Assembly: GCA_030737835.1 (NCBI GenBank)
Contig: CM060849.1
Span: 10,923,768 to 10,987,767 of the forward strand
Direction of reading: 5' to 3'
Source of the DNA: Acorus gramineus
Lineage: Eukaryota > Streptophyta > Magnoliopsida > Acorales > Acoraceae
Length of the DNA: 64,000 nt
In this document: positions 1,931 to 36,500 of the stretch, one piece after another
Layout of the letters: every line of letters begins with the position of its first letter
Numbering within the stretch: the first letter of the stretch is position 1
Position numbers and translations under genes: made by a program
The notes under the pieces: model-generated
The model's input: the letters and a program-made list of their open reading frames with translations, nothing else
Told to the model about the DNA's origin: nothing
Databases searched by the model: none

Positions 1931-3130
1931 CTAGTTGTAGCGTATGTGCAAATGCACATGAATAAAGTGTAAGAATTTTTTTTATTAATTTTTTTCATTC
2001 ATGTCAAATAATTTAATTACAATAACATTATGCAACTATAAAATGATATATATATAGATGGTTTAAATTACGTACTACTTTCAACAATAATAACCAGTGA
2101 CATTAACAACAAATTCTTTGAAACATGGGATTTGTAGAAAAACAAAAACACACATTGAAGAAATCAATAACGGTTTTTGTTTAATATAGTTTAATAAATT
2201 AAATATTAAAAATTTTAATATCTTTAACGTAAATGATATGATGTTTTTTAAAAAATAGTACAGTTGCTGAATTATTAAATAAGAAATATTCTATGCAACA
2301 ATGCTATCAGTTGATCAATCTCTATGTGAATGATAAAAATGGGCCACTAAAAACCATAGTTGAGATTAAAGAATCCAAAAATTCCACACCATCAAAGATT
2401 AACTAATATAAGGTTTACTTATATATTATTGAGTAATACCAATGGTAACTATGGAAAAGTTGACAAGTAGTAAATGAAGAAAAGGAAAACTAATCCAATA
2501 ATAGAAAACAATAATGTTAAATATGCCATACAATAATTAAAGCATAGAACACATATCCATTAACTTACATAAGTTCCATATAAGGGGAATAACCTTGCAG
2601 CCATGTTTTTAAATCTTCGACTTTATAAACTTAACACAAAAGTTATATCTATGAGAGAAAGACAACCTTGGTTGATCAATTTAAACCCTACTCTTTTTGT
2701 TTTTAGATCCACTGTTGCTCTCGCTGCCTTCTTCAAAATCATTCGTAGTCTCGATATGCTCTGCAATCCAACATCCCATTGCTCAACCATCATTTCTACA
2801 AAAGATTAACTCACCTTCCTAAGGTAAAAAAAAATTTTGAGAGAGAAAAGAAAAAAGAGAGAGATGATAGATCCATTTATCCAAATGAATGGGGATGACA
2901 ATGAATAGGTATTCAATGTTGCATAAATAAATTTAAGGGTTTGTGGAATATCATAAGCCATTGTCTCTAGAAGAAGATGAGGGGATTGAATGGAAATGTA
3001 ATTAAATAGAAATGTAAGGGTAAAATGAAAAAAATGGTTGTCATTAAAGTGGTGTCAATGGACTATAATGGGATTGAATGAATTGACAAGGACAAAAAGG
3101 TCAAATGGCAAGTTTTTGGTTTAAGAGAAC
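1931..3130 (-). mobile_element. Helitron-like non-autonomous element, copy 1 (probable)
   Basis: Read on the minus strand, the low-coordinate end has a hairpin (ATGTGCATTTGCACAT, plus-strand 1944-1959) followed 9 bases later by CTAG next to T, the form of a Helitron 3' terminus. The high-coordinate part (2835-3128) is about 95% identical to two blocks of the element at 7932-9105, where about 850 bp separates them. No Rep/helicase ORF is present. The left and right parts may belong to different elements, so the span is an inference. Confidence 0.4.
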
Positions 3131-4420: not shown

Positions 4421-5710
4421 TATTCAGGGATGTTGATAACTTACTTGTTTTGGTTGAAAGGTGGTCTAGAAGTAGAATATGATGTAGCCGGATAAGAAGC
4501 CTAGGATAACACACCACAATAAGAACATAAGAAGTGAAAGTATAATAAATATCATAAGAAAATCAAAATATCTTATTCATTATTATTTTTAAAATGTTTA
4601 CAACCCGTTAAGTACAAGACATCCCAATACGAATAATTTTTTTTTAAAAAAAATTGAAATTTAACACAGATTTAAAAATGAAAGCAAACTTGTTAAATTA
4701 TTAGTGTTCAATGCAACTGTATAGCTTCGCATGAATAAATTGAAATACTATTGTTATATTAAATATTTCATGCTAATTTGTAATGTCATCCTTATCCTTA
4801 TAGAGGAATGATAAGTATGCCTTAATGTTATTATCCTTATCGGTAGATTTATTATCTTAAGAATTTTTTTTTATATATAAATAGGAAGCTGATTTTTTTT
4901 TCTTTTTTTGGTATTGGAAGGTGCTTTAGATAGTGTGATGAAGAATGAGATTTAGTTTGATGGAATTATTGAAGTATGGTTTACCCCGATTTGTAAACTC
5001 AGATACATCTAAATATTTTATTTGAAAGGAGGAACATTACACATTTGAAGAAGATAATAATATGTAGGCCACTTTTATTATGTAGGCCACTTTTATTCAT
5101 TCTAGTCATTTCCCACATATATAGAGTAAGCCTACTATCAACTGTACAGAATAAATGTCACTTGTATTCCAGCATACAGAGTAATCTTTATAGAAGGAAT
5201 TCACGAGGAAGTTCGATAGAAGGGATAGAGCTCATGCTTGTATGTGCAGAACGGCAAGATAAATGAATTCCCCATTAAAGTGAAGCTTCTTCTAGGTGAT
5301 TGTTTAGATGTAGATATGTAATGTTGATGGCGTGATTCGTTAAGTATGTTTAGTTTCTATTTAATTTAGTAATAGATCCTGACTAACGTGGAGGACACTT
5401 TCCTTAGAGATGTATTATTTTAAAAAAAAAAGACATGATTAAAAAACATCGGAGTAAACTACAGTTTTTCATTTTGAATAGTGCACGATTAAAAAAATGA
5501 TAATACATTAAAATTAATTTCTATAGATCATATGTATAAGAATATTTTTATATGTACCAACATTAATTAGGATAATATGTTTTTGGACCTGAAAATAAAC
5601 CCTCATCATATTATTATCATAATAAAGGGATGCTTATAAAATCGAAGGAGTAAAAATATTTATATACACGAATGGAGTATTACATTGACTGAAACATTAT
5701 CATTATACTC
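3131..5710. other. AT-rich intergenic DNA with (TA)n tracts
   Basis: No supported gene. It holds TA microsatellites near 3673-3700 and 4363-4418 and a small tandem duplication listed separately. A 73-codon ORF at 5045-5266 includes the doubled phrase 'taggccacttttatt' and has no recognisable domain. Confidence 0.5.
4208..4361. repeat. 88-bp tandem duplication ending in TA microsatellites
   Basis: The block starting 'ggatgttatgtaacacaatg' at 4208 recurs at 4296 with one or two differences. Each copy runs into a (TA)n tract, the second about 56 bp long. This fits slippage or unequal exchange at the TA runs. No function is inferred. Confidence 0.85.
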
Positions 5711-7388
5711 AGATCCTAGATATAACTTTCTATAAGAAAAAATAATCTCTCTCTTTTGATAAGGAAAACATGTGTAAAATGATATTCAAAAGAAGCTAAG
5801 AAATAAATCCTATTCATATTTTAAATAGACTGAAATCCAATCCTATTCTAATTTTAACCCTTACATATTGGATATTAAAAAATGATAACTGTAATATTGT
5901 CCTATTCTAAATTTAACACTTACATATTGGATTCTTAAAATATGATAAATGTAATATCATGGTAATATAATTAAAATAAATTATATTCAAGATATTTTAA
6001 TGCTGCATAAAGATGTTCATACATTAAAATAAATTTATATAAATACATGTATATGATTATTTTATATATATACGCCAACTTTAATGAGATTATTTTTTCA
6101 ATATTATAATGAAGCAGGGATATCAGAATATTATCATGATAAGGGAGGGTTACAAAATCAAATCAAAGGAATATAAATATTTAACATAAAAGTATTTTTG
6201 AATTATGCAAATGAAAATAAGAAATATTGATAATATGGATGAAATCATTATAAGAGTCTTAAAAATTTAAATAGATATCATCACATCACTTACACATATC
6301 CTAAAATCCCTAAAATCTATGGAATTAATTATTTGGTGATTTCTAGATATGAATAACATGAAAGTTTCTATGTACCATGCAAAAGGGAAAACAAATGAAG
6401 ATGTAAATTCATATTGAAAATTAACTAAATTTTAAATAGATATCATTGTATTTTTATACAGATCCTAAAATATATAGAATTCAATCATAATAAAAAAAAA
6501 TTTAAAATCAAATTTTCTATATACCATGCAAACGAAAAAAAATAACTGAGGTCCTATATTTAACTTTCTATAAGAAAAAAACAATCTCTCTCTTTTGATA
6601 AGGAAAACATGTGTAAAATGATATTCAAAAGAAGCTAAGAAATAAATCCTATTCATATTTTAAATAGACTGAAATCCAATCCTATTCTAATTTTAACCCT
6701 TACATATTGGATATTAAAAAATGATAACTGTAATATTGTCCTATTCTAAATTTAACACTTACATATTGGATTCTTAAAATATGATAAATGTAATATCATG
6801 GTAATATAATTAAAATAAATTATATTCAAGATATTTTAATGCTGCATAAAGATGTTCATACATTAAAATAAATTTATATAAATACATGTATATGATTATT
6901 TTATATATATACGCCAACTTTAATGAGATTATTTTTTCAATCTTATAATGAAGCAGGGATATCAGAATATTATCATGATAAGGGAGGGTTACAAAATCAA
7001 ATCAAAGGAATATAAATATTTAACATAAAAGTATTTTTGAATTATGCAAATGAAAATAAGAAATATTGATAATATGGATGAAATCATTATAAGAGTTTTA
7101 AAAATTTAAATAGATATCATCACATCACTTACACATATCCTAAAATCCCTAAAATCTATGGAATTAATTATTTGGTGATTTCTAGATATGAATAACATGA
7201 AAGTTTCTATGTACCATGCAAAAGGGAAAACAAATGAAGATGTAAATTCATATTGAAAATTAACTAAATTTTAAATAGATATCATTGTATTTTTATACAG
7301 ATCCTAAAATATATAGAATTCAATCATAATAAAAAAAATTAAAAATCAAATTTTCTATATACCATGCAAACGAAAAAAAATAACTGAA
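5711..7388. repeat. 838-bp recent tandem duplication with nested repeats
   Basis: Copy 1 (about 5711-6549) and copy 2 (about 6550-7388) align with an 838-bp offset and differ at only a few positions, for example 'agagtctt' against 'agagtttt'. Each copy also contains a diverged 60-bp internal duplication (5840-5958 in copy 1) marked by 'tcctattcta' and 'cttacatattggat'. A further partial repeat of the copy's end follows at about 7388-7484. No ORF is conserved between copies, so it reads as satellite-like or transposon-internal DNA. Confidence 0.9.
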
Positions 7389-7931
7389 GATGAATAAATT
7401 CATATTGAAAATTACCTAAACTTTAAATAGATATCATCGTATCTTTTATATAGATCCTAAAATCTATAGAATTCAATCATAATAAATTCAAAAGAAATTT
7501 TTTTTTTTAAGATTACGAGATAAAAAATTGTGAAGACAGCTACACATCCTGTATCATGAAGAGCTAAAATTGAGGAAAATTTTTTCTGATAGGAAAATTC
7601 ATTTATCAAAAGATCCAAAGATCTATGTCTCATCATCACATGAACCCCAAATCTGCAACAAAAAAAAGGGCCTATCTGAAAAAACAACTAATCCCATCCC
7701 TAGAATCAATCATTTATATATTTAAGATCGTGATATAGGCCACCTGAAGATGTGTTAAGCTCAAACAAATGCCTCTCTGAAACGAAAATTGGGATTTTGA
7801 AATGAACAAATCACAAAATTTCATATTCTAAATAAATGACAAAAAAAAAATTAAACAACTGAGTAATCAAACAAACTAAAAAACATACCCGTATCAGAAA
7901 AAAAGATGAACACCACCTCCACATTCCAAAA
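7389..7931. other. AT-rich intergenic DNA after the tandem repeat
   Basis: It begins with a partial third copy of the tandem unit's end (to about 7484). The remainder has only short ORFs without recognisable domains. Confidence 0.45.
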
Positions 7932-9105
7932 TTTTGAGAGAGAGAAGAAAAAAGAGAGAGATGATAGATCCATTTATCCAAATGAATGGGGATGACAATG
8001 AATGGGTATTCAATGTTGCATAAATAAATTTGAGGGTTTGTGGAATAGCATAAGCCATTGTCTCTAGAAGAAGATGAGGGGATTGAATGGAGAGGGGATG
8101 AATGATGAGGAGATTGAATGGAGGGTGGATGAATGAGAGTGGCCGTTTCATAGTTGGAGGTTGAAGGGTGTATTGAATTTTCATAATATAATTTGGAAAT
8201 CTAAAATGAAGAGATTACATTAATATTTGATACCTTTTTTAATGTATCAACATGTCTTTGCATATGAAATTGGAATTTTTTTTTTGGGAATAATATTTTG
8301 AATATATTTTCATTTTATAAGGATCCTCTTATCATAACAATATTATGATATTCAAATATGATTATAATAAAATAATAAACATATTAATATAATTTTAGTC
8401 GGCATATTAATGTAATTTAATCATAATTGATGTAAAGGAATTTTTTCATGGATAAGTCGGCATATGAATGTAATTTTATCATAGATGATGTAAATTATTA
8501 ATATTATTTTATTATATATCTATAGTAGTCATCATATAAGTATGATGAAATGTAAAGCTTAAAATTTTAATGTGTCATGCATGATATGATGAAAATATGA
8601 ATAAATTATGGATGAAATTACAATGATATGAATGGATTTTCATTGGATTAAATCTATCGTTGAGTTCACACAAAGCTCAAATTTGAATTTGTTCATTTTT
8701 ATAGCAATAATTTTTTTTTTTGTACCAGTATTTTATATGTTTGTTTTTTTTATTGGATTGCATTTTTAATTACTGTGAATTATAAAAAAATTTGTTGGGT
8801 AGATCTTATTGACTATTGATTATTTGGGGCATTAATAGAGTAGAGAAATCCAAGTAAATAGTAAATGCTAATCAAATATGTGTGAATTAAATAAATGCTA
8901 ATAGATGTGAATTACATTAATATTTGATATTTTTTTTAAATGTGAATAAAAATGTAAGGGTAAAATGAAAAAAAAAATGGTTGTCATTAAAGTGGTGTGA
9001 ATGGACTATAATGGGATTGAATGAATTGACAAGGACAAAAAGGTCAAATGACAAATTTTTGGTTTAAGAGACTTTTATATAGTAATAATAATATAGATAG
9101 ATAGA
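7932..9105 (-). mobile_element. Helitron-like non-autonomous element, copy 2 (probable)
   Basis: Blocks 7932-8090 and about 8950-9069 match 2835-2993 and 3010-3128 of the first copy at about 95%. The intervening 8091-8949 is absent from copy 1. Read on the minus strand, the end near 9105 begins 'TCTATATTATTATTACTATA', the TC plus AT-rich start typical of plant non-autonomous Helitrons. The phrase 'attacattaatatttgata' occurs at both 8212 and 8913, so the copy 1 form may have lost the middle. No transposition gene is present. Confidence 0.4.
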
Positions 9106-10120
9106 TAATATAAATCTAGGAAGAGAATTTGTTTGAACCTTTTATTTTTGGTATATTTTTGGACCTTCCCAGTGGGATACGATGACAAAATGGACAAACA
9201 TAATGATCTGACATCTAATCATAGCCTACTCAAATGTTAAATGAAAGGTGGGTTGGATTAGGCTTGAAACACCAGTTTGGGACGAGAGACAGATTTATTC
9301 GTATACCGGATTAAATATCTTCACTGTTATTTTGAATGAAAAATGAACGTAACATGTGTGTTGTTGATTCACCTTGAAAAAACTGAGAACAAGTGGTGGA
9401 TAAAAATTAGAAAAATTTTATGGATTTTTAAATAATTCTATCCATGTATGAATTGTTTTCAATTAAAAATATGTGTGAGAGATGTGTGTATTATGACAGA
9501 TGTGACATTTTTATGACAGATGTGTTAGTATTAGGTGAAAAGTGTGTGAGAATATTTCTGGAAAGGGTATCATCGTAGGTAATGGTTTCTTGTCACCTTA
9601 AAAATGGTCCTCACCTATTGGCTGAAACAAAGACCCTTTGTATTATGATCTGCTGCGGAACCTTACAAATTGGAAAAGATGAAGAAATGAAGGAACCCAA
9701 CCTTCAATAAACAAAAAGATAAGCTATTCTTAACATGAAGTGGTTCATGTGTATAAGTGTGTACAATGGACAGTGAAATGAATGATGGATCGCCCAAGGA
9801 TGTCCTATTCTCAATCCAAAAGCGTCCTGATGAAATGATGACGAAGTCCTACGTGCTTAGTCCTCGAATGAAATGCTGAATTTTTTGCCAACTGTATAGC
9901 ACTCTAACTATCACTGTGCAAAACATTATTCGTCTGTCGTACTATTACACTCACTTCATTTTAAAGTCTCAATGCAGTCCTATCATTGACTCTCTCCACT
10001 CACGGTATTGAGGTATATATCTCATTCAAAGATTCACATTTTTTTTTATAAATGATATCATTCATTCTTTCATCGGAATATATATAATATATTTTACATT
10101 TAAAAAAAAAACACATACTT
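9106..10120. other. Intergenic DNA, no gene seen
   Basis: AT-rich sequence with a few less AT-rich patches (9590-9900). No ORF above 60 codons, RNA gene or transposon end was recognised. Confidence 0.45.
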
Positions 10121-10469
10121 TGTTACGATTTTGGATCTTAGGATGCAATCAATCGAAGGAAATAAACAAACAAATCGAAGCAAAGACACAAAAAATTTAC
10201 GTGATTCAGCAAATCTTGCCTACGTCCACGAAGTACACCAGAGATCAATCCACTATCAATGAGAAGATTTTACAATGGTTACACCGAAGATAAAAACCCT
10301 AGAGCCTAATGAAAAATATGAGATGCCCTTTTATACTGACATCTCATTAAGGGCAAAAAAGTCAATACACGAAAGACACTCCCAAAAAAATATGAGCTCG
10401 ACCCCCGTCTAACCCTGCGTAGCGCCAACAATCCTCTGTGCACATCATCAGGCTCCACAATATATAACA
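10121..10469 (-). mobile_element. Ty1-copia LTR, fossil (3' LTR, minus strand)
   Basis: The 349-bp block begins TGTTA and ends TAACA, the inverted TG...CA termini of an LTR. Just outside its high-coordinate end the minus strand shows a purine-rich GGTGGGAGATTG-type tract, the usual copia polypurine tract, and then the end of a copia pol frame. It is therefore the 3' LTR of a minus-strand element. The element is broken: nothing upstream of the very end of pol is present. No target duplication can be judged. Confidence 0.8.
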
Positions 10470-10658
10470 ATCTCCCACCTGGAGACTGAACCAAGAGTAA
10501 ATAACTTCTATCAAATGATCGATCTATAATCTGGTGTGCTCATCCCTGTCCTCAAGCTAGAAGACCAACTGAAGCTGCGCACAGCTCCAGTTTCTCTATA
10601 GTCAATGTCTTAGTCAATATGTCAGCTGTATTCTTGCTTCCTGGATCTTCTCAAGCAA
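10470..10658 (-). mobile_element. Ty1-copia pol 3' end (RNase H tail), fossil
   Basis: Minus-strand translation gives the conserved copia C-terminus (NTADILTKTLTIEKLELCAA), which closes the RNase H domain just before the polypurine tract. The rest of the element is missing: the sequence switches at about 10659 to helicase-gene DNA. It is a broken fossil. Confidence 0.8.
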
Positions 10659-11466
10659 TAGCTCCATCAGAAAACAAAATGATTACAAATCTCCATGAAG
10701 CTAAGATACCCATTAACATACGGAAGGTAATCTGCAGTTTTCTTTATACTTGCATTTCATTTACACAATTTGTAATAAGAGAAGATAGTGAGTCGAGTAT
10801 GTGTGTGTGGGTTTTCTGAAATAGATCCTCTCATAGCACCCTAGTAGTGGGATCTGAACCCAGACCACCTCTTTGGAGGTGGGCCGTGCTTACTGATTAA
10901 TTAAAATTTCTCTGTAGAATTTTGGGGGTGGAAATTGAGTCGAGTTCTATCAATATAAGCATGAAATCCAGCATGGCCACTAGTTTCTTTTCCCAAGAAT
11001 TTGGGGCATACTTTTTGAGTTTGAAGCCTTCGATGTGTCAAGAATACTAAGGAACAATTAATGCATACATTGGCGATGACCATGCATTGCAGATATAACA
11101 TTAAGCATGATTGTCTCTGTTACAAAAATGAATATCTTGCCTAATTGAGTTACATCACTGTTCTGTCAAGCAAACAGAAATTTTCCCATCTAATTTTTAT
11201 ATTTAAGTATCTCTGTTCATTGCCAGCAAACACGCAAATACGACATCCAATAAATCTGCATTTTTCTGTATACTTGCATTCCATAATCTCAGTGATTTAC
11301 ACTAATGAAATTGGAGAAGATAGGAATTTTTTTTTATTTTTATAAGTGAGTGAAGAAGATAGTAAGTTGATTGTTGATTCCAAATAATTGTTCTCCCGTA
11401 GCCACACAAGAGTGCAATTTGAACCCAGACCTCTTTGGAGGTGGGTAGTGCTTATGGTTAATCAAA
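10659..11466 (+). pseudogene. Copied fragment of the DEAD-box helicase gene
   Basis: This block matches 18990-19794 at about 98%. It contains the last 22 codons of helicase exon 5 ([20 protein letters not shown]...), the splice donor and most of intron 5, including two antisense SINE-like pieces. It cannot encode a helicase, since it starts in mid-exon. The left neighbour is a copia pol end and the right neighbour a copied piece of a DEGP2 intron. The piece at 18990 is the donor, because there it lies in frame inside an intact gene. Confidence 0.92.
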
Positions 11467-11669
11467 TGTAAAAGAATTTCTGTATCTTCATGGCCTTCCT
11501 GTCATGCATTTGCCAATAAGTTCATTTTTTTAAAGAAATGATAGGCATTATGCCTTGTTATCTTCAATCAAAACAAAATGCCCAAACAAACAAAACACCA
11601 ATGGTGGGTGCACCGTCCAAGGTGACCTGGTAGAAGAGATGTCTACTGGGCACACACTGGACTATGCAT
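11467..11669 (+). repeat. Copy of a segment of DEGP2 intron 2
   Basis: The 203 bp match 36010-36214 in DEGP2 intron 2 at about 97% in the same orientation. The block abuts the helicase-gene copy with no spacer. Neither flank is shared with the intron copy. It could be a copied intron piece or a short repeat present in both places; the sequence alone does not decide. Confidence 0.85.
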
Positions 11670-11737
11670 TTTTTTCCTCCTCTAACTCAGACTCATTCGA
11701 ACTTGTAACACCACTTTCAATTTATATTTGGATAGGA

Positions 11738-12141
11738 GTATTGGGTGTTTGGATTGGGATTCTCAATCCCAATCCATGTCAATAAGTTGTTTGGATAAAT
11801 TTGAAAATGGTGATTGGAATTGAGAGAGTGAGATTGGGAATCCTTGATTAGAGGGATTGGGAATCCCCCTCAAGAGGTGGTATTCTCTCAATCCCAATCC
11901 ATGTAGATTGAAAAAAGACATTTTTATCCAGGCTCTTCATCTCCCTTAACACATAATATATATATATTATAATATAATATAAATATATTAAAAAATATAC
12001 ATACATACATATATATATAATATATATAAAACATAATATATTTAATATAAATATATGTATATATATAATATAATATAAATTTAAATAAAGAATATAAATA
12101 TATTTAAAAATATGCATATATATAATATATATATATATAAT

Positions 12142-12179
<38 letters not shown>

Positions 12180-12616
12180 TCAAGCATTAATTGTGATGTA
12201 CATGTTCATAAATCCTCTTTATTTATTTTATTTATATAATATATGAATAAGGAAGTCTTCATAACCTATTGATTGGATGATACGAGATTTATATAATTTA
12301 TTATAACTAATTTGCTATGATATATATATAAAATATATATATTATATTACTATCATAACTATTTTGCTATGATATCATAACTAATTTGCTATGATATATA
12401 TATATATATATAGAGGGTATTTTTAGAAATATATATTTTTTATATTGTAATCCATGCATTACCAAACACATGATTGAGATTGAGAATCTCAATCCTGTTT
12501 TTTTAATCATGTTCTTTACCAAACAGGTTGACATGATTCACAATCCCAATCCACCTGGATTTAGAATCCCAGGATTCACAGAATCCCAATCCCACCTGTC
12601 AACCAAACAGACCCTA
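11738..12616. mobile_element. MITE, possibly Harbinger-like, with AT-rich core
   Basis: The left end reads TTGGGTGTTTGGATTGGG. The right end, read on the minus strand, starts TTAGGGTCTGTTTGGTTGAC, and both arms carry repeated GGATTGGGATTC-type phrases. The right end adjoins TAA, as expected of a TTA/TAA target duplication, but the left one is not clean. The core (about 11950-12420) is almost pure A/T. There is no transposase. Confidence 0.5.
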
Positions 12617-13586
12617 AAAGTGTTGTTGGCAAAGATTTAAATTTTTCTAAAAAAAATATATCCATCCATCTTTATCGAACAAAAATATATGCAATTTATA
12701 AAAGTGCACCAAAAAAATTTCAAACAAAGATTTTAAACATCATCATATGGCGGGTTTGCATTTTGATGGGTCTTAAAATCTATAATTACATCACATTAAA
12801 GTATATGTATTAATAGAACAATATAATAGAATATTTTTTATTTATACCCAATTAAAATTTTAAATTATATTTATGAACATGAAACTTAGAGAAAAAAAAA
12901 CTGGATTACATGTAGTCAGTAGTGGTGGATTGGAGCTTGGATTGATGGGTATACGTAGTGCATTTTATGATTGAGATACAAGGATTTTCTCATATTTTTA
13001 GTAACTTTTTAGATAGATATGTAAATTATATTAATATTATTAAGTATTAAGTAATAAGTTGAATATAATGAGTAGTTTAATATTAATATATAATTATTAT
13101 TAAGAATATTTTGTCAGGGGAAACGTAGGATAATAGATTATATTTGGATAAGGATGTATTTATATTAATTTAAAACAGTAAAATCATCGAAAAATGTTTC
13201 TATTATAGGATAAGGGAACTCTAAATTAACTATAACGATTATTGAATCATTATTTTGTGTATAACAGAAGGAATCACATTAAGATTTTCTTTTTCTCTTT
13301 AATAACCCCCCCCCTCCCCTTATATTCAGCCCATTTGTAACCAACTCTGAGTTATAAATGAACTACCAACTTTCAAAAAAGATTCCCCTTACCCTATCTT
13401 AAATCTTAATAAATCTTATTTACTGTCTTCGTTCAGATTACACAAATCTAAAAAGGTCATCCGATTGAGATTATACACATACATATTCCTTAATTGTGAA
13501 AACATATATAAATGCCTTGTAATTTTTTTTTCTTTTTTTCCATTTTCATATGAAATTCTGAATTTAATCTGTATTCATCTTACTAT
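12617..13586. other. Intergenic DNA upstream of the RING gene
   Basis: AT-rich, with a C-run near 13307-13319. It should include the promoter of the gene at 13587, but no box could be assigned with confidence. Confidence 0.45.
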
Positions 13587-16333: not shown

Positions 16334-19300
16334 ATGGCTGTGCCCGAAAAATTTTATATTCGATTAACCCCCAAAAAAACCCTTCCAAAACCCCCGCCGC
16401 CGAACAAACCCGCGCCACCGCCTCCCGCCGCCAATCCAACCCCAATGACCACCATCAGCAAGAACAAGAAGAAGACCGCCGTCTCCCGGAAGCAGCACCG
16501 CCTCACGGAGGCGGCGGAGATCGACCTCATCGAGTCATGGATCTCCTCCATGAAACCTGACCCGGGATCCAACCCCCTCTCCCTCCCTCCTCCGCCGGGT
16601 GACGACTCGCCGTCCCCCTCCGACGGTGGTCCTTTCCCCCCTTTCGCGGGGGCCGTCCGATTCGACCAGCTCCCGTTGTCGAGGAAGACGAAGGACGGGC
16701 TGAGGCCGAAGTACACCACCATGAGCGACGTCCAGAGGGCCTCCCTCCCCCACTCGCTCTGCGGGAGGGACGTGTTGGGCGCGGCGAAGACCGGGTCGGG
16801 GAAGACCCTTGCCTTCATCATCCCTGTAAGTTTTTTAATTTCATGTTCGAAACAGAAAGAGTGGATCTTTATTGGAAATTTAGGGCTTTTGGGGAGCTGT
16901 TGTGTGTTTGATTTTGCATCATGTTTGAGTGTTTGTGTTTATCTATGTTCAATTTGGATTCATGTACCTCTTCTTCTAAATTTTTTACTTATCTTCTAAA
17001 TATTCTTTTTTCAATTTGTATGTGATTATTCTTCAATTTAGATTGACGAATCTCTTATTCCGAAATTTATATTATGCGTTTTTATATAACAATCTTCAAA
17101 TTAGACTCGCTTCCTTCAATTTACCTCTTGTTTTGATCAACCAAGGACTATCTTATTAGTACGATTTAGGTAAAAGTTATTTAGTTGTTTGTGCAGTGCA
17201 TTTTTCCCAAATCACTTTTTCATACCGATTATGAGTTCTATTAGCATCTTCTGATACAACCATCATTCAGCAGCCATGTTATATATATATATATATTGCT
17301 TCATTTTGTATCACTTCTGTTTTTTTTTGGGGAGCAGATAATTAGTTGACTTATTTACCATAAGCACAGATACTACTTAATGACATTTATTTACTCATCA
17401 TTGTGTATATCATTGGCTCCTCTCATTTTCCTTCCCTCCCTCCTCTCCTCTCTTGGGAAACTTCAGAATTTGAATGTGTTGAAATGGCTTCTGCATCTAT
17501 AATGCAGAGGTTTAATCAATCTCTGTATGCACATCTTCAGTATCCTCTTTTCCTTCAATGCAATTATCTGAAATTTATCATTTATCTGCTTTAATTTTCT
17601 CATGCGGATGTCATTTGTTCACATGGAGAGTATTGACAAAATATTTCACGACTTTTCAGGTTTTAGAAAAATTATACAGAGTTAGATGGGGTCCTGAGGA
17701 TGGTGTAGGTTGCATTATAATATCCCCTACCAAGGAACTAGCTGGACAACTATTTGAAGAATTGAAACTTGTTGGAAAATACCATTCTCTGAGTGCTGGT
17801 CTTTTGATCGGTGGTCGGAAAGAGGTTGAGACAGAGAAGGAGCATGTTAATTATTTGAATATCTTGGTGTGTACTCCTGGTAGGCTGCTTCAGCACATGA
17901 ATGAGACTCCAAATTTTGATTGCTCTCAATTGCAGGTCAGGATAACAAAACATGATATAATCTTTTCTTTTCATTTTCTTGTTTCTTACACTTCATTTGT
18001 CCGTTCGAGAAACAGATATTGGTGCTTGATGAGGCGGATCGAATTCTTGATAGGGGATTCAAGAAGGAGCTAAATGCAATTTTCTTTCAGCTTCCGAAAA
18101 AGCGTCAGACTCTTCTTTTCTCAGCTACACAGACAAAATCAGTTCAAGATTTGGCAAGGCTTAATTTGAAGGATCCAGAGTACCTCAGTGTCCATGCAGA
18201 GTGTCCAGCAGCCACACCCGACCAATTAGAACAAACTGTGATTGAAGTTCCTCTTGACCAGAAGCTGGACATGCTCTGGAGCTTCATAAAGACACATCTT
18301 AATACAAAGATACTCGTTTTTCTTTCAACCAACAAGCAGGTGACTTATTCTCTCCCTTAAAAATCACATATATTATGATACTCGTTTTTCTTTCAACCAA
18401 CAAGCAGGTGACTTATTCTCTCCCTTAAAAATCACATATATTATGATACTCGTTTTTCTTTCAACCAACAAGCAGGTGACTTATTCTCTCCCTTAAAAAT
18501 CACATATATTATTGGCAGAGGACTGGCCCCATCTATTCTATAAAAGCATGCATAGTCTTGTTGGCAAAAGTCACATGAATCATACACAAATGCTTGATTA
18601 CAAGTGTTACACACTGTAAATTTGTACAGGTCAAGTTCGTGTATGAAGCATTTAAGAAACTACGACCAGGGATTCCATTAAAGTGTTTGTATGGGCGGAT
18701 GAAACTGGAACGGAGGATGGGAATATATTCCCAGTTTATTGAGAAACGGTCTGTTTTATTTGCAACTGATGTTGCATCAAGAGGCCTTGATGTCCCTGTA
18801 GTTAACTGGGTTGTCCAGGTTTGTTCTTGGTGTAGGTGATCGTTTCTTTTCTGTAGTCAGCCTCTTCAAATGATTTCAATATTATTTTATTTTTGTACCA
18901 GGTTGACTGCCCCGAGGATGTTGCAACCTATATTCACAGAGTTGGCCGGACTGCCCGTTTCACTTCAAAGGGGAGGTCGGTCTTATTTCTAGCTCCATCA
19001 GAAAACAAAATGATTACAAATCTCCATGAAGCTAAGATACCCATTAACATACGGAAGGTAATCTGCAGTTTTCTTTATACTTGCATTTCATTTACACAAT
19101 TTGTAATAAGAGAAGATAGTGAGTCGAGTGTGTGTGTGTGGGTTTTCTGAAATAGATCCTCTCATAGCACCCTAGTAGTGGGATCTGAAGTCAGACCACC
19201 TCTTTGGAGGTGGGCCGTGCTTACTGATTAATTAAAATTTCTCTGTAGAATTTTGGGGTGGAAATTGAGTCGAGTTCTATCAATATAAGCATGAAATCCA

Positions 19301-21193
19301 GCATGGCCACTTGTTTCTTTTCCCAAGAATTTGGGGCATACTTTTTGAGTTTGTAGCCTTCGATGTGTCAAGAATATTAAGGAACAATTAATGCATACAT
19401 TGGCGATGACCATGCATTGCAGATATAACATTAAGCATGATTGTCTCTGTTACAAAAATGAATATCTTGCCTAATTGAGTTACATCACTGTTCTGTCAAG
19501 CAAACAGAAATTTTCCCATCTAATTTTTATATTTAAGTATCTCTGTTCATTTGCAGCAAACACGCAAATACGACCCAATAAATCTGCATTTTTCTGTATA
19601 CTTGCATTCCATAATCTCAGTGATTTACACTAATGAAATTGGAGAAGATAGGAATTTTTTTTTTTTTTTATAAGTGAGTGAAGAAGATAGTAAGTTGATT
19701 GTTGATTCCAAATAATTGTTCTCCCGTAGCCACACAAGAGTGCAATTTGAACCCAGACCTCTTTGGAGGTGGGTAGTGCTTATGGTTAATCAAACCATGG
19801 TTCACAGAATTTCAGGGGTGAGGAGTGAATGTCCTTCGACATTTAATGATATTAAGAGGAAAGTGTGCATTGGCATTTGATATGCGTCCAATGTAAAACA
19901 CTAATGCAGATGTCGCCATTATAAGAGTTGATCTTCTATATTTCAGACATAATTGGGTGCCCTCGTTATTCTATTCAGCAAACATGAATTTTTTCTAGCT
20001 AACTTTTATATTTAACATCCCTTTTCATTTCCAGGCAAACATGCAAAGATTGCATCCAATATCTTCATTACTGGCATCACTGCTTGTCAAGTACCCAGAT
20101 ATGCAGCCATTAGCCCAAAGGGCTTTCATCACATATGTGAGGTCGATATACAAGCTGAAGGACAAGGAAATCTTCGACGTTGATAAACTTCCAATAGAAG
20201 GGTTTGCCGCATCATTAGGCTTACCCATGACACCGAAAATGCGTTTCCTTGATAAAAAGATGCAAGGAAAGAATGTCCCCTGGAGTCTACTCCAACGATG
20301 TGAAAATAAATCCGAGGATGATGAGATCGAGGGAGAGAAGGCACCCAGGGATGTCCTCACACAACTGGAGAATGACTTTGGAAATGTTGAAGAGGATACT
20401 GACATCTTTTACCCAAAAGAGAGCACGACGGAAGTTGAAGAATCTCAACCTGCAATGTACGTTGACTTTCTTGAACTTAGGAAGTTTTTCTATATCTTGC
20501 TTTCTCTAATATCAACTTTGTAATGAATTTAAATATGCATAGTTTGCTGGAAATAATCAATCAACATGGCTTTCTTGAAACTTTGAAGTGTTACTATATA
20601 TTGCCTTCTCTAATATAATCTTTGTGATGAATTTAATTATGCATAGTTTGCCGGAAATGAAAAAATCAAAGAAAAAGAAGGTGAAGATCAATATAGACAA
20701 GCCATTTGGGACAAGGGTTGTTTTTGATGAGGAGCTCAATCCGCTACCCCCTCTTGCTGCCATGGTCAAAAATGGGAATCTGGATGCGAAAGGTAGACTC
20801 AATTCATAATTTTTGGATTGGACGCCTTTGTGATTAGCTTAACTGGAATTTTGTTATGCAGATCCTGGTAAAGAACGGTTCAAGAAACTGATGGAAGAGT
20901 TTAGGCCCAAGGATGAAGAAGACAAGCTCCTCAATAAGCAGAGGTTGCGGGAGAGACGGATCAAGGAGAAGATGAAAATAAAGAGAGGGAGGGCTGAAGA
21001 CATGGGAGACGATGAAGATGGTTCTGATGCGGACAGTGACCGAGAAACCAAGAGGACGAAAATAGTTTTCCACAGCGATGATGAGGGTGATGAAATTAAA
21101 GTGACAAAGGATTTAGGTTCCCTCGCGGATTCTATCTCTATTGCGGAGCAAGAGGCACTTGCTCTCAAATTGTTGATTTCTATGCATTCTTGA
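16334..21193 (+). CDS. RH32: DEAD-box ATP-dependent RNA helicase, Dbp4/DDX10/RH32 type
   Basis: Eight exons: 16334-16825, 17660-17935, 18016-18339, 18630-18818, 18902-19057, 20035-20456, 20647-20792 and 20862-21193. All introns are GT-AG. Together they give 779 codons including the stop, with no break. Motifs in order: AAKTGSGKT (150-158), PTKELA (187-192), TPGR (236-239), DEAD (261-264), SAT (292-294), [10 protein letters not shown] (409-418) and HRVGRTAR (439-446). A lysine/acid-rich C-terminal tail follows. The tail and the order of parts fit the Dbp4/DDX10 group, nucleolar helicases that act on U14 snoRNA and 18S rRNA maturation. A second start at Met38 (16445) would remove a proline-rich leader and may be the real one. 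Exon 5 and intron 5 were copied to 10659-11466. Confidence 0.92.
18309..18512 (+). repeat. 68-bp triplication across the exon 3 splice donor
   Basis: Three near-identical 68-bp units start at 18309, 18377 and 18445. Unit 1 contains the last 31 bases of helicase exon 3, the GT donor at 18340 and the first part of intron 3. Units 2 and 3 therefore place two further intact copies of the donor inside the intron. Use of a downstream donor would add 68 or 136 bases, shifting the frame. Confidence 0.95.
19140..19235 (-). mobile_element. SINE-like fragment in helicase intron 5 (antisense)
   Basis: On the minus strand it reads 'cagtaagcacggcccacctc' and then a tRNA B-box-like stretch, as in plant tRNA-derived SINEs. 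The B-box core is altered here, but the copied version at about 10855 still has 'tctgggttcagatccc'. It closely resembles the next SINE in the same intron. Confidence 0.5.
19656..19795 (-). mobile_element. SINE, tRNA-derived, antisense in helicase intron 5
   Basis: Minus-strand reading begins 'ttaaccataagcactaccca', then a B-box-like 'ggtctgggttcaaatt', and ends in an A-tail that appears as the T-run at about 19657-19670. Length (about 140 bp), internal promoter-like boxes and A-tail suit a plant SINE. The same insertion is present in the copy at 10659-11466. Confidence 0.6.
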
Positions 21194-21500
21194 GTTATGA
21201 TTTTAGGAAAATTGTGATAGAAAATTTTGTTAATTATATGTTGTGTTTTTGCTGACTGAAATGTCTTCCAGTTTGCCATTAATGAAGTATACATGGCATC
21301 ATTTTTTTTTGTTTTGGTTTCATCTGGCTGAACTTCAAAGGCTGTATCAGGTGACTGACTGAAATAAGACCATAATGTCATTAGGGATTCAGAAGGAACT
21401 TCATATTTAGTTGTCTTTTTGTTCGAATTAATAGGTATCATTAAAATTGTTAGTTTTGAATCTTTTGATTTATCCATTCAATTCAGGATGTTAAGAAATT

Positions 21501-21676
21501 GGGTTATTTGCATAAATACCTCTTGACAGACTATTTTGTTAAAATACCTGCGTCGAAGCCCCATTTCCAGTAATACACAAATTAAACTTTTTTGAGCTAT
21601 ATAGTGTGGGGTATAAGGTTTTCAATGGAGGTATTTTGACAAAAGGAATTTTTAGGGGTACCTATGCAAATAACCC
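21501..21676. mobile_element. Short MITE with about 50-bp inverted ends
   Basis: The left end GGGTTATTTGCATAAATACC and the right end, read on the minus strand (GGGTTATTTGCATAGGTACC), match closely. The similarity continues to a shared AAAATACC phrase about 45 bp in. The total is about 176 bp. No clear target duplication was found. It lies about 300 bp downstream of the helicase stop. Confidence 0.65.
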
Positions 21677-24600
21677 TATTATTTATTACAGTTAATGCTT
21701 GTCACTCATTAGTCTCCAAGTGATGGAATACGTGTTTAAGAATATCACAAAACTGATATTTTAAACATGTGAGATAATATTTGTTCATTGGGGATTGATT
21801 ATCACAAATGAGATCCAACACTGATTGGATCATATCTCTATCAATTATTGATCTTACTGAAAGAGGGTCACTGATTCAACTAAATCAACCGGAAGTGTCT
21901 TGAATAATGGAGATGGATGATCTTTTTAGAACAGAAAATAAGAATGAAAGAAGTTAATAAAAAAAGTACAGAAATTAAAGTTTCCCAACAACAGTGGTGA
22001 GCAACAAATGCACCTCACTCCTACTTCCAATCATCCCCCCATAATTGCAGAAACCAGGTCCACCTCCACCAATCATGCAAGAATAAAATGATGCTCGCCC
22101 AAATGTTCTCTATGTAAACTGTCCTCTTGAAATAATTCCACATGGCTTCATTTTAATGTTAATAGTAGTTTGTTGGAGAAACCAAGGGCATGATAGCCAG
22201 AATAAGAGGGTATTGCATTCTCTCTAGGTCAACTGATGTTCTCTCTATGGAAAAAGAGATGTTCTCCATGAAATATGGACAATCTTATAGAGGAATTCTT
22301 ATGATGATCTATAAGATGGAACCAAATCAGATTAACCCACTCCAGTCACTTGTGACCTAGCAAGACAAAACACCTTTTTTTTTTCCCCATTTGGTTTTTA
22401 TTTTAGGAACTGCTACTTGTTCCCAGAATGAGTACATCTTTTGAATTGTTACTTCTTTTCTCGTGATATGTAGTCCCTTTGCTTTCCTGTTAAAAATTTG
22501 TCACTGATTGATTGAAACTGGTATATTTCATTGGAAGATCTATGTTAGATTCTTAAGATTCTTACATGGTTTTTTAGAAACCTGACCAAATTCAGAATCA
22601 TGGCGTGTCATCTTACATACATTATCTGATTTCATAGGATTGCAAGAAAACATTTCTGATTTCACTCTACTTAGGTGTTCAGTAGTCATCATTAGGTGTT
22701 TAATTATTACGTGAATGTGGTGACTGAGTTTGTGTAATGCCCTGATTTTGTGAAATTATTTAGAATGATTCGTCAACTGAAGCAATTATTGTTACTTATG
22801 GTTCTGATTCGAGAATTGAGAATATCTATCTATTTCAGTTGTTCTTTCGTATTTTTTTCCTTATGGAATGATGAGAATGAGAATATTATTATTTCTTCTC
22901 CTTTCCTCCTCACGTTTGACCATTCAATGTGAAACTTTGTCCAGTACAGTATATTATCAAATGACTGGAATTCAGTATTTTAATCTCTGATGTTGTTAGT
23001 TCTGTTGTTGCCATGAAAAACAAAAGTCTATTGTTCCTTATCATTTAACATTGTTGTTTCTCGATATCATGAAAAATGTTGAGAAAAATCATTTTCTGCG
23101 TTCCCTCTTGCAGTCCCCAACATGTTTTAAATTTTTTTTCAAATGTATATATTTGTTCAATGAAACATGTATAAAAGCAAATGAACTTTATATTAAGGTG
23201 AATTATATATATATATATATATGTCTTTCTGCATTTTTTTAATTTTTATATTTATACTAGATTAGAAGAAAGTGGGGGCGTGCAAAAAGAAATACAGAAT
23301 ATAATATGTTTCAGCACTCCAATATTATTCATCTTGGCTAAAGTGAAAATAAATTCATAAAGTAGACCTTTCTTACATGGGACCCATTCCTCTTCTTCAG
23401 AATATCATTATCTATATATTCCTTTGTTGTGAGTTTAATTACATGGAATCTGTAACAAATAATTTGGGAACTTATTATCACATTCAAAACAGAGATCCCC
23501 CATCTACCTCTCAACCGAGTTTGTGTTATGAATTTTGGCATATCTTCGGCCCCCTGGACAGTTGAGTAAGGGGAGAATAGGGAGATATAAAGTGAAATAA
23601 AACCAAAAATCCGTTTGCAAATAACATATTAATATAAGAATGCCTGATTATATGAGAATAAGATGGTATTGATATTACAAGTCATCTGTTGAAAACGACA
23701 ATTATAATTTTACAGTTTTAGTCATGCAGTGTGAGTGTAGTTCTCAGTATGTCATTGTAGAAATTTGATCAATTCATTGATACTTTGAATGGTTTAGATT
23801 TGTCAGCGGTACATCAATTAAAATGGGATTACTGGAACATTTTTTCTCAATTAATTACATAATTCAAACACAACACATTTTCAAATAAGACTAACAAGAC
23901 TGAAAAATTGTCCCACAAGCCTAGAGCTTGGCGGTACAACCATTTTTCTAACCCTAATTCCAGGGCATGTACTCCTTTATGATATCAAAGAAGCAGCAGC
24001 CTACTAATTCATTTTTTCAAAAAAAAAAATTTCAATTCACAAATATGTTGATTATTTTTAAATAATATATTTTATCTAATGATGTATATGCTTTTATAAA
24101 AATAAAATGTATATATTCTAATGAATTATATGAATCTATAAATAAAAATGTGAAAAAATTTAATGAAATATATATCTTGTTGTATGAGTATGTGACGCTA
24201 ACGAATTATATCAGATTAGAATTGGGGCTAGAAAAAGGATCGTGTATAAATTGAGCTAAAAAAATGAAAAATGTTACATTCAATCATTTTTACATTTCCA
24301 AATCTAGTCTGTAAGTGGATTTTTTTAAAAAAAAATCTTAAAAGTGCCTGATGAGGTATGTATTTTTATAAAAAGATAAAATATATACTTCTATCAATTA
24401 AATGTTATGATTCATAGAAAATGTGAAAATATTCTATTGCGGTAAATATGAGTAATGAAAATATATGAAGTTGCATTTATGACTATAAAAAAAAACTGAG
24501 TATAAGAATTAAATAAATGTGATTTCTAATGGCCCATAATATGCTCTAAGTTTGTTCTAGGTCCCAATTAGTTAAGAGTGTTGTTACACTTAATCTATTA

Positions 24601-24841
24601 ACAATTCCTAACGAAATATATATCTTTTTAGAAATTTTTTGACAAATTTTATAAATTTATCTATGCAAGTAATTGAATTATGTAATTTATTATTATAAAA
24701 ATATGTACTTTATTAGATTATATATTCTATTTTTAAAAAATAAAAAAAGTGTGAATCGCAATTGGGGATGAGTAATTGAAAATGGGTTTGAGCCTAACGG
24801 TTTGAGGATAAGTGATTGATAGGAATTTATGATTTTTTTAA
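21677..24841. other. Intergenic DNA between helicase and F-box genes
   Basis: AT-rich DNA with only short, domain-less ORFs and a TA tract near 23207-23222. No RNA gene or transposon boundary was recognised. Confidence 0.45.
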
Positions 24842-25110
24842 GGGTTTTTTATTTTTAAGTTTATGTAAATTATATGATTTAATGATCGATCCCTCACTTT
24901 TTTATATTTCAGTTTAAGTTCTTAGATTAAAAGGGTATATTTTTTATTAGTCCCTGGATACCTATTGTTAAATTATTTAATTTTCTTTTTAGCCCCTGAG
25001 AGGAACTAAAAATAAATATATCTTTTAAATCTAAAAACTTAAATCAAAATATGAATAAGTAAAGGATGGATCACTAAATCATATAGTTTAAGAAGCATTA
25101 AAAATAAAAA
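24842..25110. mobile_element. Foldback MITE, family A, copy 2
   Basis: It has the same order of phrases as 431-706: a GGGTTTTTT start, 'gatccctcactttttta', 'ttttttattagtccct', then the mirrored 'gaactaaaaataaat' and 'ggatggatcactaaatca'. It is more diverged than copy 1, with the loop in the same place. It has no coding capacity. Confidence 0.6.
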
Positions 25111-26274
25111 GTTTTTTTTTAAATGATAATTTAAGCACTGCGGAGCTCAAAAAATTAATTATACTTTTAAATAATTTTTCCAAAAGACAAAAAATACCGC
25201 CCAACCCCCACGTCACGCAGAATATTTATTGACTAACAGAGCCGTGTTCACCAGTCACCATCTTGAGTCCGGTTCACCCACTCACCCACCGCCCCCAATA
25301 ATTGGCCCTCTCCTCACCCCCTAAACAAAAACACAAAAATTAATATGTATTTTATTGTTTGGTCTAATATTTTTTTAAATTTTATGTGCTCGATTCTTTT
25401 AAAAATAAAATATACCTAATTGATTGTTTGAAGAAAATATAATATAAATCAAACTATAGTAGAAAATCTAAATTTTTTTTTGACAAGGTATCAACTATTA
25501 GTGTTGAAAAATAAAAGATGATAACTGAAGCCACTCCTTTAAGATAAAATCTTACTCTGGAAAAAGACAAAAGGAAGGGGGACATGAGGTGGTGGCGGAC
25601 TGCGGGCAGTTGATGGCTGGCCGCATCTCTTTCTCTTTCTCCCCCTACCCCTCCACTGCCACCTTAACCACAGTTGCCCGCCACTATTGCCCCCCTCTGT
25701 CGCTACTGCCCTCTTTCTCTCGCCCCCTCCCTCGTCGTCACCACCTTCTCCATCGTCTCCACTACCCTCCGTCCGCCTCAGCCACCCTCAGCCCTCTCCC
25801 AACAGCCTGCTCTTCTTTCTCTTCCTCTTTTTTAGTGTTGAAGATGAAATCCCACCTTAAAAAAGATAAAAATGAAAAGTGGATAGAGTTAGGGTAGACC
25901 TCCAAATATAAACAATGTATAATAGTATACTTTTCCCCAAAAATATTAAGTGCAGGGCTAGCAGCCTAGGCACCACAACCTTTACTGATGTGAGTTGTTA
26001 TACTGTTTTTCTTTTTTACGATATTAAATACAATTTTAATACAATATATAATTTCTTTCGCATGCATCATTCAATGGAGGATATAAATATATTATTTTTT
26101 TTATAAAAATATATAATATAAATTATATATATATATATATATATTTATTTATTTTATAAAATAAGAGCAGTAATGACTATGTTTGGAAAACAGGACTGTA
26201 ATATTGTCCTTCAGTGAGACCGCATCATAATTCAAGACCCACCCATACACGCCAAAAAAAAAAAAAAACCAAAA
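25111..26274. other. Upstream region of the F-box gene
   Basis: It contains a pyrimidine-rich block (about 25620-25830) that keeps a 102-codon frame open at 25589-25897. The predicted peptide is low-complexity Ser/Pro/Leu and is not believed to be a gene. A TA tract lies near 26127-26144 and an A-run near 26256-26268, directly before the F-box start codon. No promoter box can be assigned firmly. Confidence 0.45.
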
Positions 26275-27927: not shown

Positions 27928-29075
27928 GTTATTCTTTTTTCTTTTTGTTTGGATGAATCACTTATCAGTATTTTGTTTTCAACAAAGAAAAAGAAGAGCT
28001 TGTGATAAAATGCATTTGAACTCTGCATGATTGCATTATGTTTGTTCTGAACATAGCTGGGCTTCTTCTGAAATATCTTAGGAGGTGCTGGAGTTTAGCT
28101 CCAAAGATATTGGAAATTTCTGTTTTATATCTTGAATGTCACTTTGGTTTCAACATTTTTTTTGTGTATGTTACTGTATAACAATCATAATAGATCGTTG
28201 GCTATATTCTTTGTCCCGGTAATTCTAGCTGATTAAAAGATCACCGGGAGACATCCAAGGTCCTTTTTGTTACATCTCGTAAGTAGAACACCTTCACCCT
28301 AGTCTGTTTAGGATTTCCCCTTTAAGGATCTTCAGAATTAATTCTTTTTTACCTCATGGGGATCTTCTTGTGATGTATTAAATGTGCCCTTTTATTTACT
28401 TGTCTAGAACTCTAGATGCTTTACTAATCTATAAGAATTAAAGAGTTCTTCCTTTGTGTGTGTGTGTGCGCGTTTTTTTTTTTTTTTGGTGGTTGGGGTG
28501 GGGTGGGGGGGGGGGGGGGTGTGTATGCACGCTTAAAATGTATAACCAGTAAGGTAGGATTTCCACCTTATGAACTATTTCTTTGCAAAGTAGTTATGTT
28601 CTTCTTTTATGTTGGTTTGTGCTGATGATATGGCTCCATATGTTGAAACTAATTTTCCTTTTGATTACTTGAGTCTGTACACGTGTTATCATTTTTTACT
28701 TGATAATAGAATTCCACGTTGATATCCACGTGGTCAAGTATTATTATTTTTAACAACAAAATACATTTAACCCCCTTCAAAGTGTCCGATATCCACATTA
28801 TACCTTGGATACTTTGGGAAGTCAAAATAAACCCCACAGATTTGATTATGTAAATCACGCCCCCCCCACCCCAAAAAAAAAAAAAAAATTGAATCAATGT
28901 TGACAGAATTGGAATATTCGGTAGATATTTTGTTTAGTTAACCCAAATTTATGCAAATATCCCGTGTAAATAGAATGAAAATCTGACTGCCCCATGCGAA
29001 TGACACCCTCCTCCCAAAATTGTCCTTTCATCTTCTTCCACCCAACTGTTGCAAATCAAACTGTTTCTCCCCTTA

Positions 29076-33517: not shown

Positions 33518-33520
33518 GCA

Positions 33521-36500
33521 ATGGCGATGGCTCATATGTCCATCTCCGTCCATTCCTCCCTCCTCCAATCCTCCTCCTCTCCTTCCCTCCCCTTTTTCCG
33601 TTCCGGTGCTCCGCGGAGCCGCTTATCCTGCTCCGCCTCTCCGTCCAGCAGAAACCGCGCCGTCAAGCATGGAAGTTACTTCTCTTGCAAACCAAAACCT
33701 TCAACCGAAGAAGTTGAGGTAACATTCGTTCAAAGAGACCTGCTTTAGTTTCCAAGTTTTGATTGATTTGTATGTATTGTGTGTCTGTGGCGTGTCTTGT
33801 TTTCTGATCAACGGAAAAATGAGTGGAGGGAATAGAATAGGACTTTTACAGACCTGAATAACAAGTCAGCCGTAAATTGATAAATGGTCTATGTGGAAAG
33901 GCTTATTATTATTATTTTTTTTAATTCAAGTATGATGGCATGCTTTTGATGAAGTCCAAAAGATTTGTTCTTCTGTTCGCATTGAATGAAAGCAAATGCT
34001 GATAAAACAGAAGAAGTTGAATACATTAGAATAGCAGTTCTATCATGTTAGCCACTGGTGGTAACTGAATAGAATGAGGTGGAGTAGAATTACTCTCCTA
34101 GGAGTGGAGAGTGGAATAGGGAATAAAATGTCTTATTCCAGGCATGCATAGCATTCAGTCTAAAACTGGATAATGGTCGATGTCATTCTTCATGGGAAGG
34201 TGGGAAAGGCTTATTCAGCATTTTGTTTTTCCAGTTTAATGCCATTTTTTGATAAAGATGAAACATTTATTATTAATTTGCCTTGAAACAAATGCAGAGC
34301 AAACAATAATGGTTGAATACCTTAGAAGCAGTTTGAATAATAGATTTAGTCTGTTAACCCCCGTTGGTTACCAAATAAGTGAGGTGGAATAGAATTATTA
34401 CTCACCTAAAATGGAGAGTGGGATAGGTAATAGAACATGTGTTATTCAATGCGTGAATAGCAATTCAGCCTAAACCGGATAATAATAAATGTTATTATTC
34501 ATGGGTAGGTGGGAAAGGTTTATTCAGCAATTTTATTCCAGTTTGATGCCATACTTTGGGTAAAGATGAAAGATTTATTCCTATTCAGCTTTTTCATTGC
34601 AGCTTGTCTTTCTTGGTTTTTTATGTATTGTAAATTACAAAAGGATAATAGGCTTTTTTTTATATTTGTCTCTAGCAATGCACAAGTTACTAAACAGTCA
34701 AGGATCATATTGCCCTCATTTTATTTCCTCCTGATGGAAGCAGAATATCTGAGGTCTAAACAACTTAGGGATGATCGATCAACAGTCAGATATTTGAACT
34801 GTTCGATGGTCTGCGGAGAATGATGCATAATTTACCATTTTAATAGGTGAAAAAAGCATTAGAAAATTGACCATGGAGGGTTTAATCTTTTTTTATCAAA
34901 TTAGTTGCAAATCTAGGAGGAGATCCTAGGGGGATTGGCTGACATCTACTGGTACACTTAAACATTGTCTTGCAGATTATCATGGAGCACACCATGAACT
35001 ACAAGTTAGGGATGAAAACTGCAATTGCCTTTCCCCATTGGGATACCTATCTAGCCTTTATGTAGTTATATTCGGGGTTGCATTAATTAATCAGGCTAGT
35101 CCAACTAAATATTAAAAAAATGGGATAATTTCTATATAATTCCTTATCTCTATTATGAAAACAAAGGAGCTTACTGAATGGGGGTTGAACAATTGGGTTA
35201 AAATAATTTTGACCATGTAATGAATTTTTAGCTGTAGAGTCAATGGTACATTTGTGTTAGACTCATCATTTGGTTTTTTGAATTATTTCTTGTTCTTGAA
35301 TTTTTGCAGGTAACTCTTGTTTCTCCCAAGAGATCACCTGGGAGAAGGAAAGAAGAGAGAGTTGATTCATTTCAGGAAGATGCAAAAGGGCAGACAGGTC
35401 GTTCTCAGTCGACTGCACTTAAGTCTACTGGCATTCAGAAAAAAGATAAAAAGGGCTTCTTGTATGATCTGAAGGAACAACAGGCATGATTACTGGCTCA
35501 TGTGATTTTTAATTGTTAGTTTTTATAGATTTTCATGCATAAATGTTTTTGAAATAGGTGATATTGATGCCTGCATTTAGTTACATAGGTCATTCTCATA
35601 GGGATAAATTCCTTGTATGCAACGGTGATTTTCTTTTTATATGTTTGGTAGCAAATATCCATCTGTTTCACTCATTAATTATAAAGGAAACCCAAGCAGA
35701 ACATTTAAAAATTATTATTTATGTGATGATTTGGTTGGTTAATGGTTATCTACTTGTCATTTACAACAGTAATGAGTAACACTCAGGAGTAGACTTTCAA
35801 ATTTCATGATGAAGGTATCTAAAGTGGGCAATCTTATGTGATCAATTTCTACGCACAATGCTGGTTCATTTCCTCGCTTCTCGAAAATAAATTTCCTATT
35901 TACTTTTTTAAATTTGTGCTATTTCGCTCTGTAGTTAGTGGGAGGAGCAAAAAAATTTCTGGATCAGGGACACAAATTGACATTTTGTACAAGTAAACTT
36001 TCACATGAATGTAAAAGAATTTCTGTATCTTCATGGCCTTCCTGTCATGCAGATTTGTCAATAAGTTCATTTTTTTAAAGAAATGATAGGCATTATGCCT
36101 TGTTATCTTCAATCAAAGCAAAATGCCCAAACAAACAAAACATCGATGGTGGGTGCACCGTCCAAGGTGACCTGGTAGAAGAGATGTCTACTGGGCACAC
36201 ACTGGACTATGCATGGTAAATCAACCCCCCCCCACCCCACCAAAGTACAAAATCCGTTATCCCCTGCCCAGGATGTTCCCAAAATTCGAATTTTTTTACA
36301 TTTGATCATCATATATACTTTGTGATTACTAAGTTAGGATATAATAATTTTCAGGGTAATGATGCAGGAAATATACAACATGCTGCTTTTCTCAATGCAC
36401 TGGTAAATGTAATGTTCTCCTTGATTTTTATCCAGATTATTTGGCATTATGAAGATTATCATAGTCCCACTTTAGTATATGCTCCTTTAATTGTTGAATT

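Follow-up and report, generated by a model that had tools for sequence, protein, structure and literature searches.

A composite patch of copia, helicase and DEGP2-like sequence in Acorus gramineus, probably left by templated repair of a break

Results

Layout of the patch and its flanks

The stretch of Acorus gramineus DNA studied here, referred to below as the window, comprises 64,000 nucleotides (C3:10923768-10987767) and sits within a contig of 32.4 Mb. It houses a DEAD-box helicase gene, a DEGP2-like gene and, to the left of both, a mosaic in which copies of pieces of the two genes adjoin fragments of a copia-type element. The features of the mosaic and the donor stretches are as follows.

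9814..9938, minus strand: copia pol fragment, referred to as B', 90-94% identical to copia relatives
9945..10120, no strand assigned: left part of a dispersed repeat of ~205 bp, with the copia LTR inserted after ..ACATACTT
10121..10469, minus strand: 3' LTR of a copia-type element
10470..10661, minus strand: 3' end of copia pol and polypurine tract, ending in ..CAATAG, reading frame seemingly broken
10659..10669, plus strand: copia/helicase joint with imperfect homology, TAGACTCCCATCA in copia relatives and TAGCTCCATCA in the helicase exon
10659..11466, plus strand: putative filler piece 1, a copy of a DEAD-box helicase exon end and intron (from self-comparison)
11465..11669, plus strand: putative filler piece 2, a copy of a non-coding stretch of the DEGP2-like gene (from self-comparison)
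11670..11726, no strand assigned: right arm beyond the patch, unlike the sequence just past donor 2
18990..19794, plus strand: donor 1, which begins within a helicase exon (..HRVGRTAR..) and extends into the next intron
36008..36214, plus strand: donor 2, ~0.7 kb upstream of a Protease Do-like 2 exon, probably intron

When the window was compared with itself, positions 10659-11466 matched 18990-19794 with 98.5% identity (9 substitutions in 805 aligned sites, 2 gaps, E 0.0), and positions 11465-11669 matched 36008-36214 with 97.1% identity (4 substitutions in 205 sites, 1 gap, E 7e-96). With such E-values, chance matching of both gene pieces is excluded. The two pieces show no detectable difference in divergence (Fisher p=0.31, with 9/803 and 4/205 sites entered). 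Both copies are direct and follow each other in the order of the donors, which lie downstream on this contig, at distances of 8.3 and 24.5 kb from the patch. The helicase/DEGP2 joint is a 2-base (AA) overlap with no spacer. At the right joint, where 31 bases were compared by eye, the right arm does not resemble the sequence that follows donor 2. The alignment to the donors thus places the breakpoints and bears out the original prediction, which held that three unrelated sequences abut here without spacers and that two of them match sequences of the same window at about 97-98%, in the orientation and order of the donors.

The donor genes

In Pfam searches of the gene that contains donor 1, the donor was flanked by a DEAD box on its upstream side and by an SPB4-type C-terminal extension on its downstream side. 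The helicase exon frame stays open across the donor 1 breakpoint, and the copy begins inside the exon. The predicted helicase exon-intron piece is real. Because copy 1 begins in the middle of an exon of a gene, the direction of copying was from gene to patch; because it retains intron sequence, spliced RNA did not serve as its template.

Two exons of the DEGP2-like gene, one near 36.9 kb and one near 40.2 kb, gave matches to Protease Do-like 2 (PDB 4fln/5ilb; E ~1e-9 and 3e-14), Do-like 9 being a weaker match. The second piece had been predicted to come from a DEGP2 intron. The gene is supported by these exons downstream of donor 2, and a position in an intron rather than in the upstream region is likely. 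It falls short of proof because neither of the two candidate exons to the left of donor 2 (33.4 and 35.3 kb) gave a match and a Pfam search of the 40.2-kb piece found nothing.

The copia element and its displaced piece

Positions 10121-10661 contain an LTR, a polypurine tract and a copia-type pol end, all on the minus strand, and have dispersed relatives, in agreement with the predicted copia end and with a copia-type LTR retrotransposon. On the minus strand of 10470-10661, an ADILTK-type motif typical of the pol C-terminus and the polypurine tract can be recognised. The window's own copia fragment is too short for the RVT_2 domain; in one relative (L004), the pol sequence that adjoins the corresponding point carries RVT_2 (PF07727, E 1.5e-79), which we take to be the copia-type reverse transcriptase. 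Homology to copia extends to 10661, that is, to the shared TAG, or to 10669 with two single-base gaps. No second LTR of the 10121-10469 family was seen within the window. The LTR/pol part belongs to a dispersed family: among the best 40 of 695 first-look candidates, which were scored, the closest relative across the full LTR-pol stretch is 93% identical, and the closest relative of the LTR alone is 94% identical.

A start of the patch at position 10121 had been predicted. The copia LTR does begin there, but the mosaic starts further left, with B' at 9814-9938, which is of the same copia family (39 other copia-family matches listed, the best at 94%, from the best 40 of 749 candidates scored). 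B' was found beside the LTR/pol end in all 13 copia loci compared, which represent 11 distinct places, since L004 and L025 are the same place, as are L005 and L026. In these relatives, B' comes after the end of the match to 10121-10669, at the same base in 11 of the 13 loci and ~10 bases apart in two; counted as distinct places, the two meet at the same base in 9 of 11 and lie ~10 bases apart in 2 of 11. At the sequence level, the LTR side stops at ..CAATAG, and position 9814 begins nine bases on (11 loci shown). The probability of such adjacency by chance is ~0.5%, a rough figure that uses an internal region of ~4.2 kb inferred from match spacings. In the window, B' is found to the left of the LTR, in unchanged orientation and with 9939-10120 in between, and the copia copies closest to it are not the ones closest to the LTR part. 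As judged from these alignments, a single break in copia seems able to explain both ends, with both sides of the break surviving.

Most of the sequence in between is the left portion of a dispersed repeat of ~205 bp whose left terminus lies at ~9944 and for which 40 other matches were listed at 70-86% identity (best 40 of 218 candidates scored). In one locus (L034), this repeat continues past the copia insertion point. The possibility that 9939-10120 is the 5' leader of a circular copia was also considered. No match to it was found beside the LTRs of L035-L037, which were taken as 5' LTRs from their spacing, and the idea was dropped because 9939-10120 belongs to another dispersed repeat.

Homology at the copia/helicase joint

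At the point where copia meets the helicase copy, copia relatives read TAGACTCCCATCATCC in 9 of the 11 loci shown, and the remaining two, L008 and L027, read TAGAATCC..; the helicase exon reads TAGCTCCATCAGAA. The homology is imperfect and spans ~13 bases. The ancestral copia sequence is represented in this comparison by relatives that are 7-15% different, in place of the lost ancestor. Using a scoring scheme that was picked after the joint had been seen, the prefix alignment score of the joint was equalled by none of 8000 random plus-strand sites of the window. Of 749 TAG sites, donor and patch among them, 11 equalled it. Given the shared TAG, the homology is notable rather than unique.

Occurrence in the genome

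The genome (398.6 Mb in 137 contigs) was searched with the patch and its parts. The fused copia-helicase-DEGP2 unit was found once, with one near-identical source for each gene piece. A search with the gene-derived part returned 15 matches (14 candidates, all scored), namely the patch, the two sources and 12 short matches of 35-139 bases, one of which, 35 bases long, is 100% identical. The donor stretches were accordingly rejected as dispersed repeats, only 3 of the 15 matches being the patch and its sources and the rest being short. Since the composite was seen once genome-wide, it is neither a known multicopy repeat nor a repeat with fixed ends, an alternative that the original prediction had raised.

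A second patch and other features nearby

A second composite patch is located near the left end of the window, where 2831-2994 and 3005-3128 copy 7928-8091 and 8945-9071, with 4 substitutions in 164 bases and 4 in 124, respectively. The pieces are 10 bases apart, direct and in order, and their sources lie downstream. This patch, together with B' and the imperfect homology at the first joint, had been missed in the original prediction.

A 124-kb region, made up of the window and 60 kb of flanking sequence, was surveyed for repeated pairs of at least 90% identity and at least 40 bases. The 14 pairs listed include four that are the patch pieces, seven tandem or near-tandem pairs at six places (an array at 18309 gives two), two short inverted pairs and one LTR pair of another element. 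A tandem duplication of ~838 bp is found at 5707-7387 (98.8% identity, 8/842 substitutions), and three perfect 68-bp tandem copies are present at 18309-18512, in the helicase gene region. When the divergences of the local duplications were compared three ways, a chi-square p of 0.07 was obtained; the second patch and the tandem duplication gave p=0.04, and the first and the second patch p=0.11. The divergences overlap and are not clearly equal, and a single cause for all local duplications is possible rather than shown.

Several other elements were observed along the way. A dispersed repeat of ~200 bp at 9316-9541 shares 72-77% identity with at least 39 other matches. In the right flank of the patch, positions 11727-12618 are a dispersed element with apparent terminal inverted repeats, whose near-full-length relatives across the genome are 75-88% identical (best 40 of 656 candidates scored). 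A young LTR element extends from 62729 to 3744 bases past the end of the window; it has two identical 126-bp LTRs (TGTTA..TAACA), CAATG target-site repeats and, beside the first LTR, TGGTATCAGA, which we take to be a primer site.

Discussion

Origin of the patch

Repair of a break in an old copia element with templated complex filler DNA is the best explanation of the patch, and we consider it probable. In such a scenario, a double-strand break would have severed the pol end of a copia-type element that had already inserted into the dispersed repeat. The copia fragment would then have annealed, by its free 3' end, to the helicase exon via the ~13-base imperfect homology, and ~805 bases would have been synthesised, left to right, by priming on the helicase gene. 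The growing end may then have jumped through the 2-base microhomology to the DEGP2-like gene, from which ~205 bases would have been copied, and the new end would have been joined without evident homology to the resected right arm, the copia remainder of which would have been lost. As part of this repair, the 125 bases nearest the break on its other side would have been rejoined to the left of the LTR fragment. The identity, orientation and order of the pieces, their joints and the single occurrence in the genome are observed; we infer the break, the left-to-right synthesis and the origin of all the joints in one event.

As is characteristic of filler DNA, the copies are near-identical and their sources have been kept, more than one template is represented without spacer, and the templates are near the break. 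Short homology is present at the switches, imperfect over 13 bases at one and exact over 2 bases at the other, and none is seen at the right joint; lack of similarity at the right joint is expected if synthesis started at the left. The displaced piece B' requires an extra break or switch under the repair model. It may instead be an unrelated copia relic, so that only the gene-piece patch would be the product of one event, which is compatible with repair of the patch. Stray pieces are expected of a family so dispersed, B' having at least 39 other matches, and the LTR part and B' have different best relatives. However, B' begins 0-9 bases from the end of the other fragment, a coincidence expected in ~0.5% of cases by chance, and we regard an unrelated relic as somewhat unlikely.

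The patch could also be what is left of a direct duplication, with either 11670-36214 as the unit or 18990-36214 inserted, once deletions had taken ~7.3 and 16.2 kb out of the left copy. The original prediction took the preserved order to favour repair or duplication over capture. Both indeed fit the order and orientation of the donors, but order alone does not favour duplication over repair. The joint between 36214 and 11670 is what a tandem duplication would produce, tandem duplications are found nearby (for example, 5707-6549 / 6545-7387), and the microhomology at the joint suits deletions equally well. Nevertheless, one duplication and two large deletions are required, which is more steps than repair, and copia would have to have broken twice, independently, at one position to yield B' and the copia end. 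No other trace of the block (at least 90% identity, at least 40 bases) was seen in the 124 kb, although the deletions would have erased it. On balance, duplication is unlikely. Capture by a transposable element, whether by copia read-through, by template switching during reverse transcription or by a Helitron or MULE carrying gene pieces, is extremely unlikely. The gene pieces do abut the copia LTR and pol end, yet the composite is found once genome-wide, the family has no second LTR seen in the window, and the gene pieces are antisense to copia and retain intron sequence. Moreover, none of the three inverted-repeat pairs in 9600-11760 (77-79% complementary, 19-26 bases) frames the patch, and at the joint the 11 copia places shown run on into their own pol. 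Judging by inverted repeats, LTRs and copy number, the pieces are not enclosed by element ends and mobilised as a unit; a MULE or LTR capture was rejected on the grounds that framing inverted repeats are lacking and the unit was seen once. Pieces of an alternative haplotype misjoined during assembly are very unlikely. The divergence of 1-3% does lie in the range of heterozygous haplotypes, but three clean joints, a 2-base overlap, imperfect homology and the retention of both copia ends are atypical of a misjoin, and the window lies inside a 32.4-Mb contig. Thus, among the three origins originally offered, filler DNA from template-switching repair fits best, and transposon capture is unsupported.

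One local catastrophe, either shatter-and-restitch or replication template switching, might have made the copia swap, the helicase/DEGP2 patch and perhaps 2831-3128 and 5707-7387 as well. In both patches the templates are downstream and the copies direct. We consider such a common event doubtful. If true, it would amount to kilobase-scale natural chromoanasynthesis in the plant germ line.

Comparison with known systems

Gap patching that accompanies transposable element insertion was reportedly described by Wicker et al. in 2010, and patch-mediated tandem duplications in rice are said to have been described by Vaughn and Bennetzen in 2014. Going by the title, the rice cases are duplications that arise from break repair, as here; unlike them, the copies at the Acorus locus are composite, with 8-24 kb between them and their sources. 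Pol theta typically produces templated inserts shorter than the tracts copied here.

Pol theta end joining with mismatched microhomology, as presented in the available excerpt of PMC13015775, resembles the Acorus patch in having imperfect short homology at the joint and a templated insert. In gap patching by synthesis-dependent strand annealing associated with transposable elements (PMC3445842, available excerpt), gene-containing fragments likewise serve as filler beside an element. The break in those cases is linked to the filling of the target site when the element inserts, whereas here it would lie inside copia, ~540 bases from the LTR terminus. At maize p2/p1, according to the excerpt of PMC2686159, a 50-bp complex filler was copied from two nearby downstream sites, and a mosaic insert with two nearby downstream templates thus sits at a rearrangement joint in both cases. 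The Acorus insert differs from the maize one, as excerpted, in its length (~1010 bases against 50), in templates that are 8 and 24 kb off and belong to two different genes, and in the additional displaced copia piece. The lengths of 805 and 205 bases also far exceed the range of 1-131 bases quoted there for maize.

The process is known already, and what sets this scar apart is its length, the ease with which it can be read, the homology where copia meets the helicase copy and the fact that both sides of the break apparently survive. Read as the product of repair, it is an unusually legible natural scar whose templates are genes within the same 64 kb. Long filler tracts of this kind bear on the reach of plant repair synthesis, and such scars show that gene fragments can come to adjoin transposons without transposon capture.
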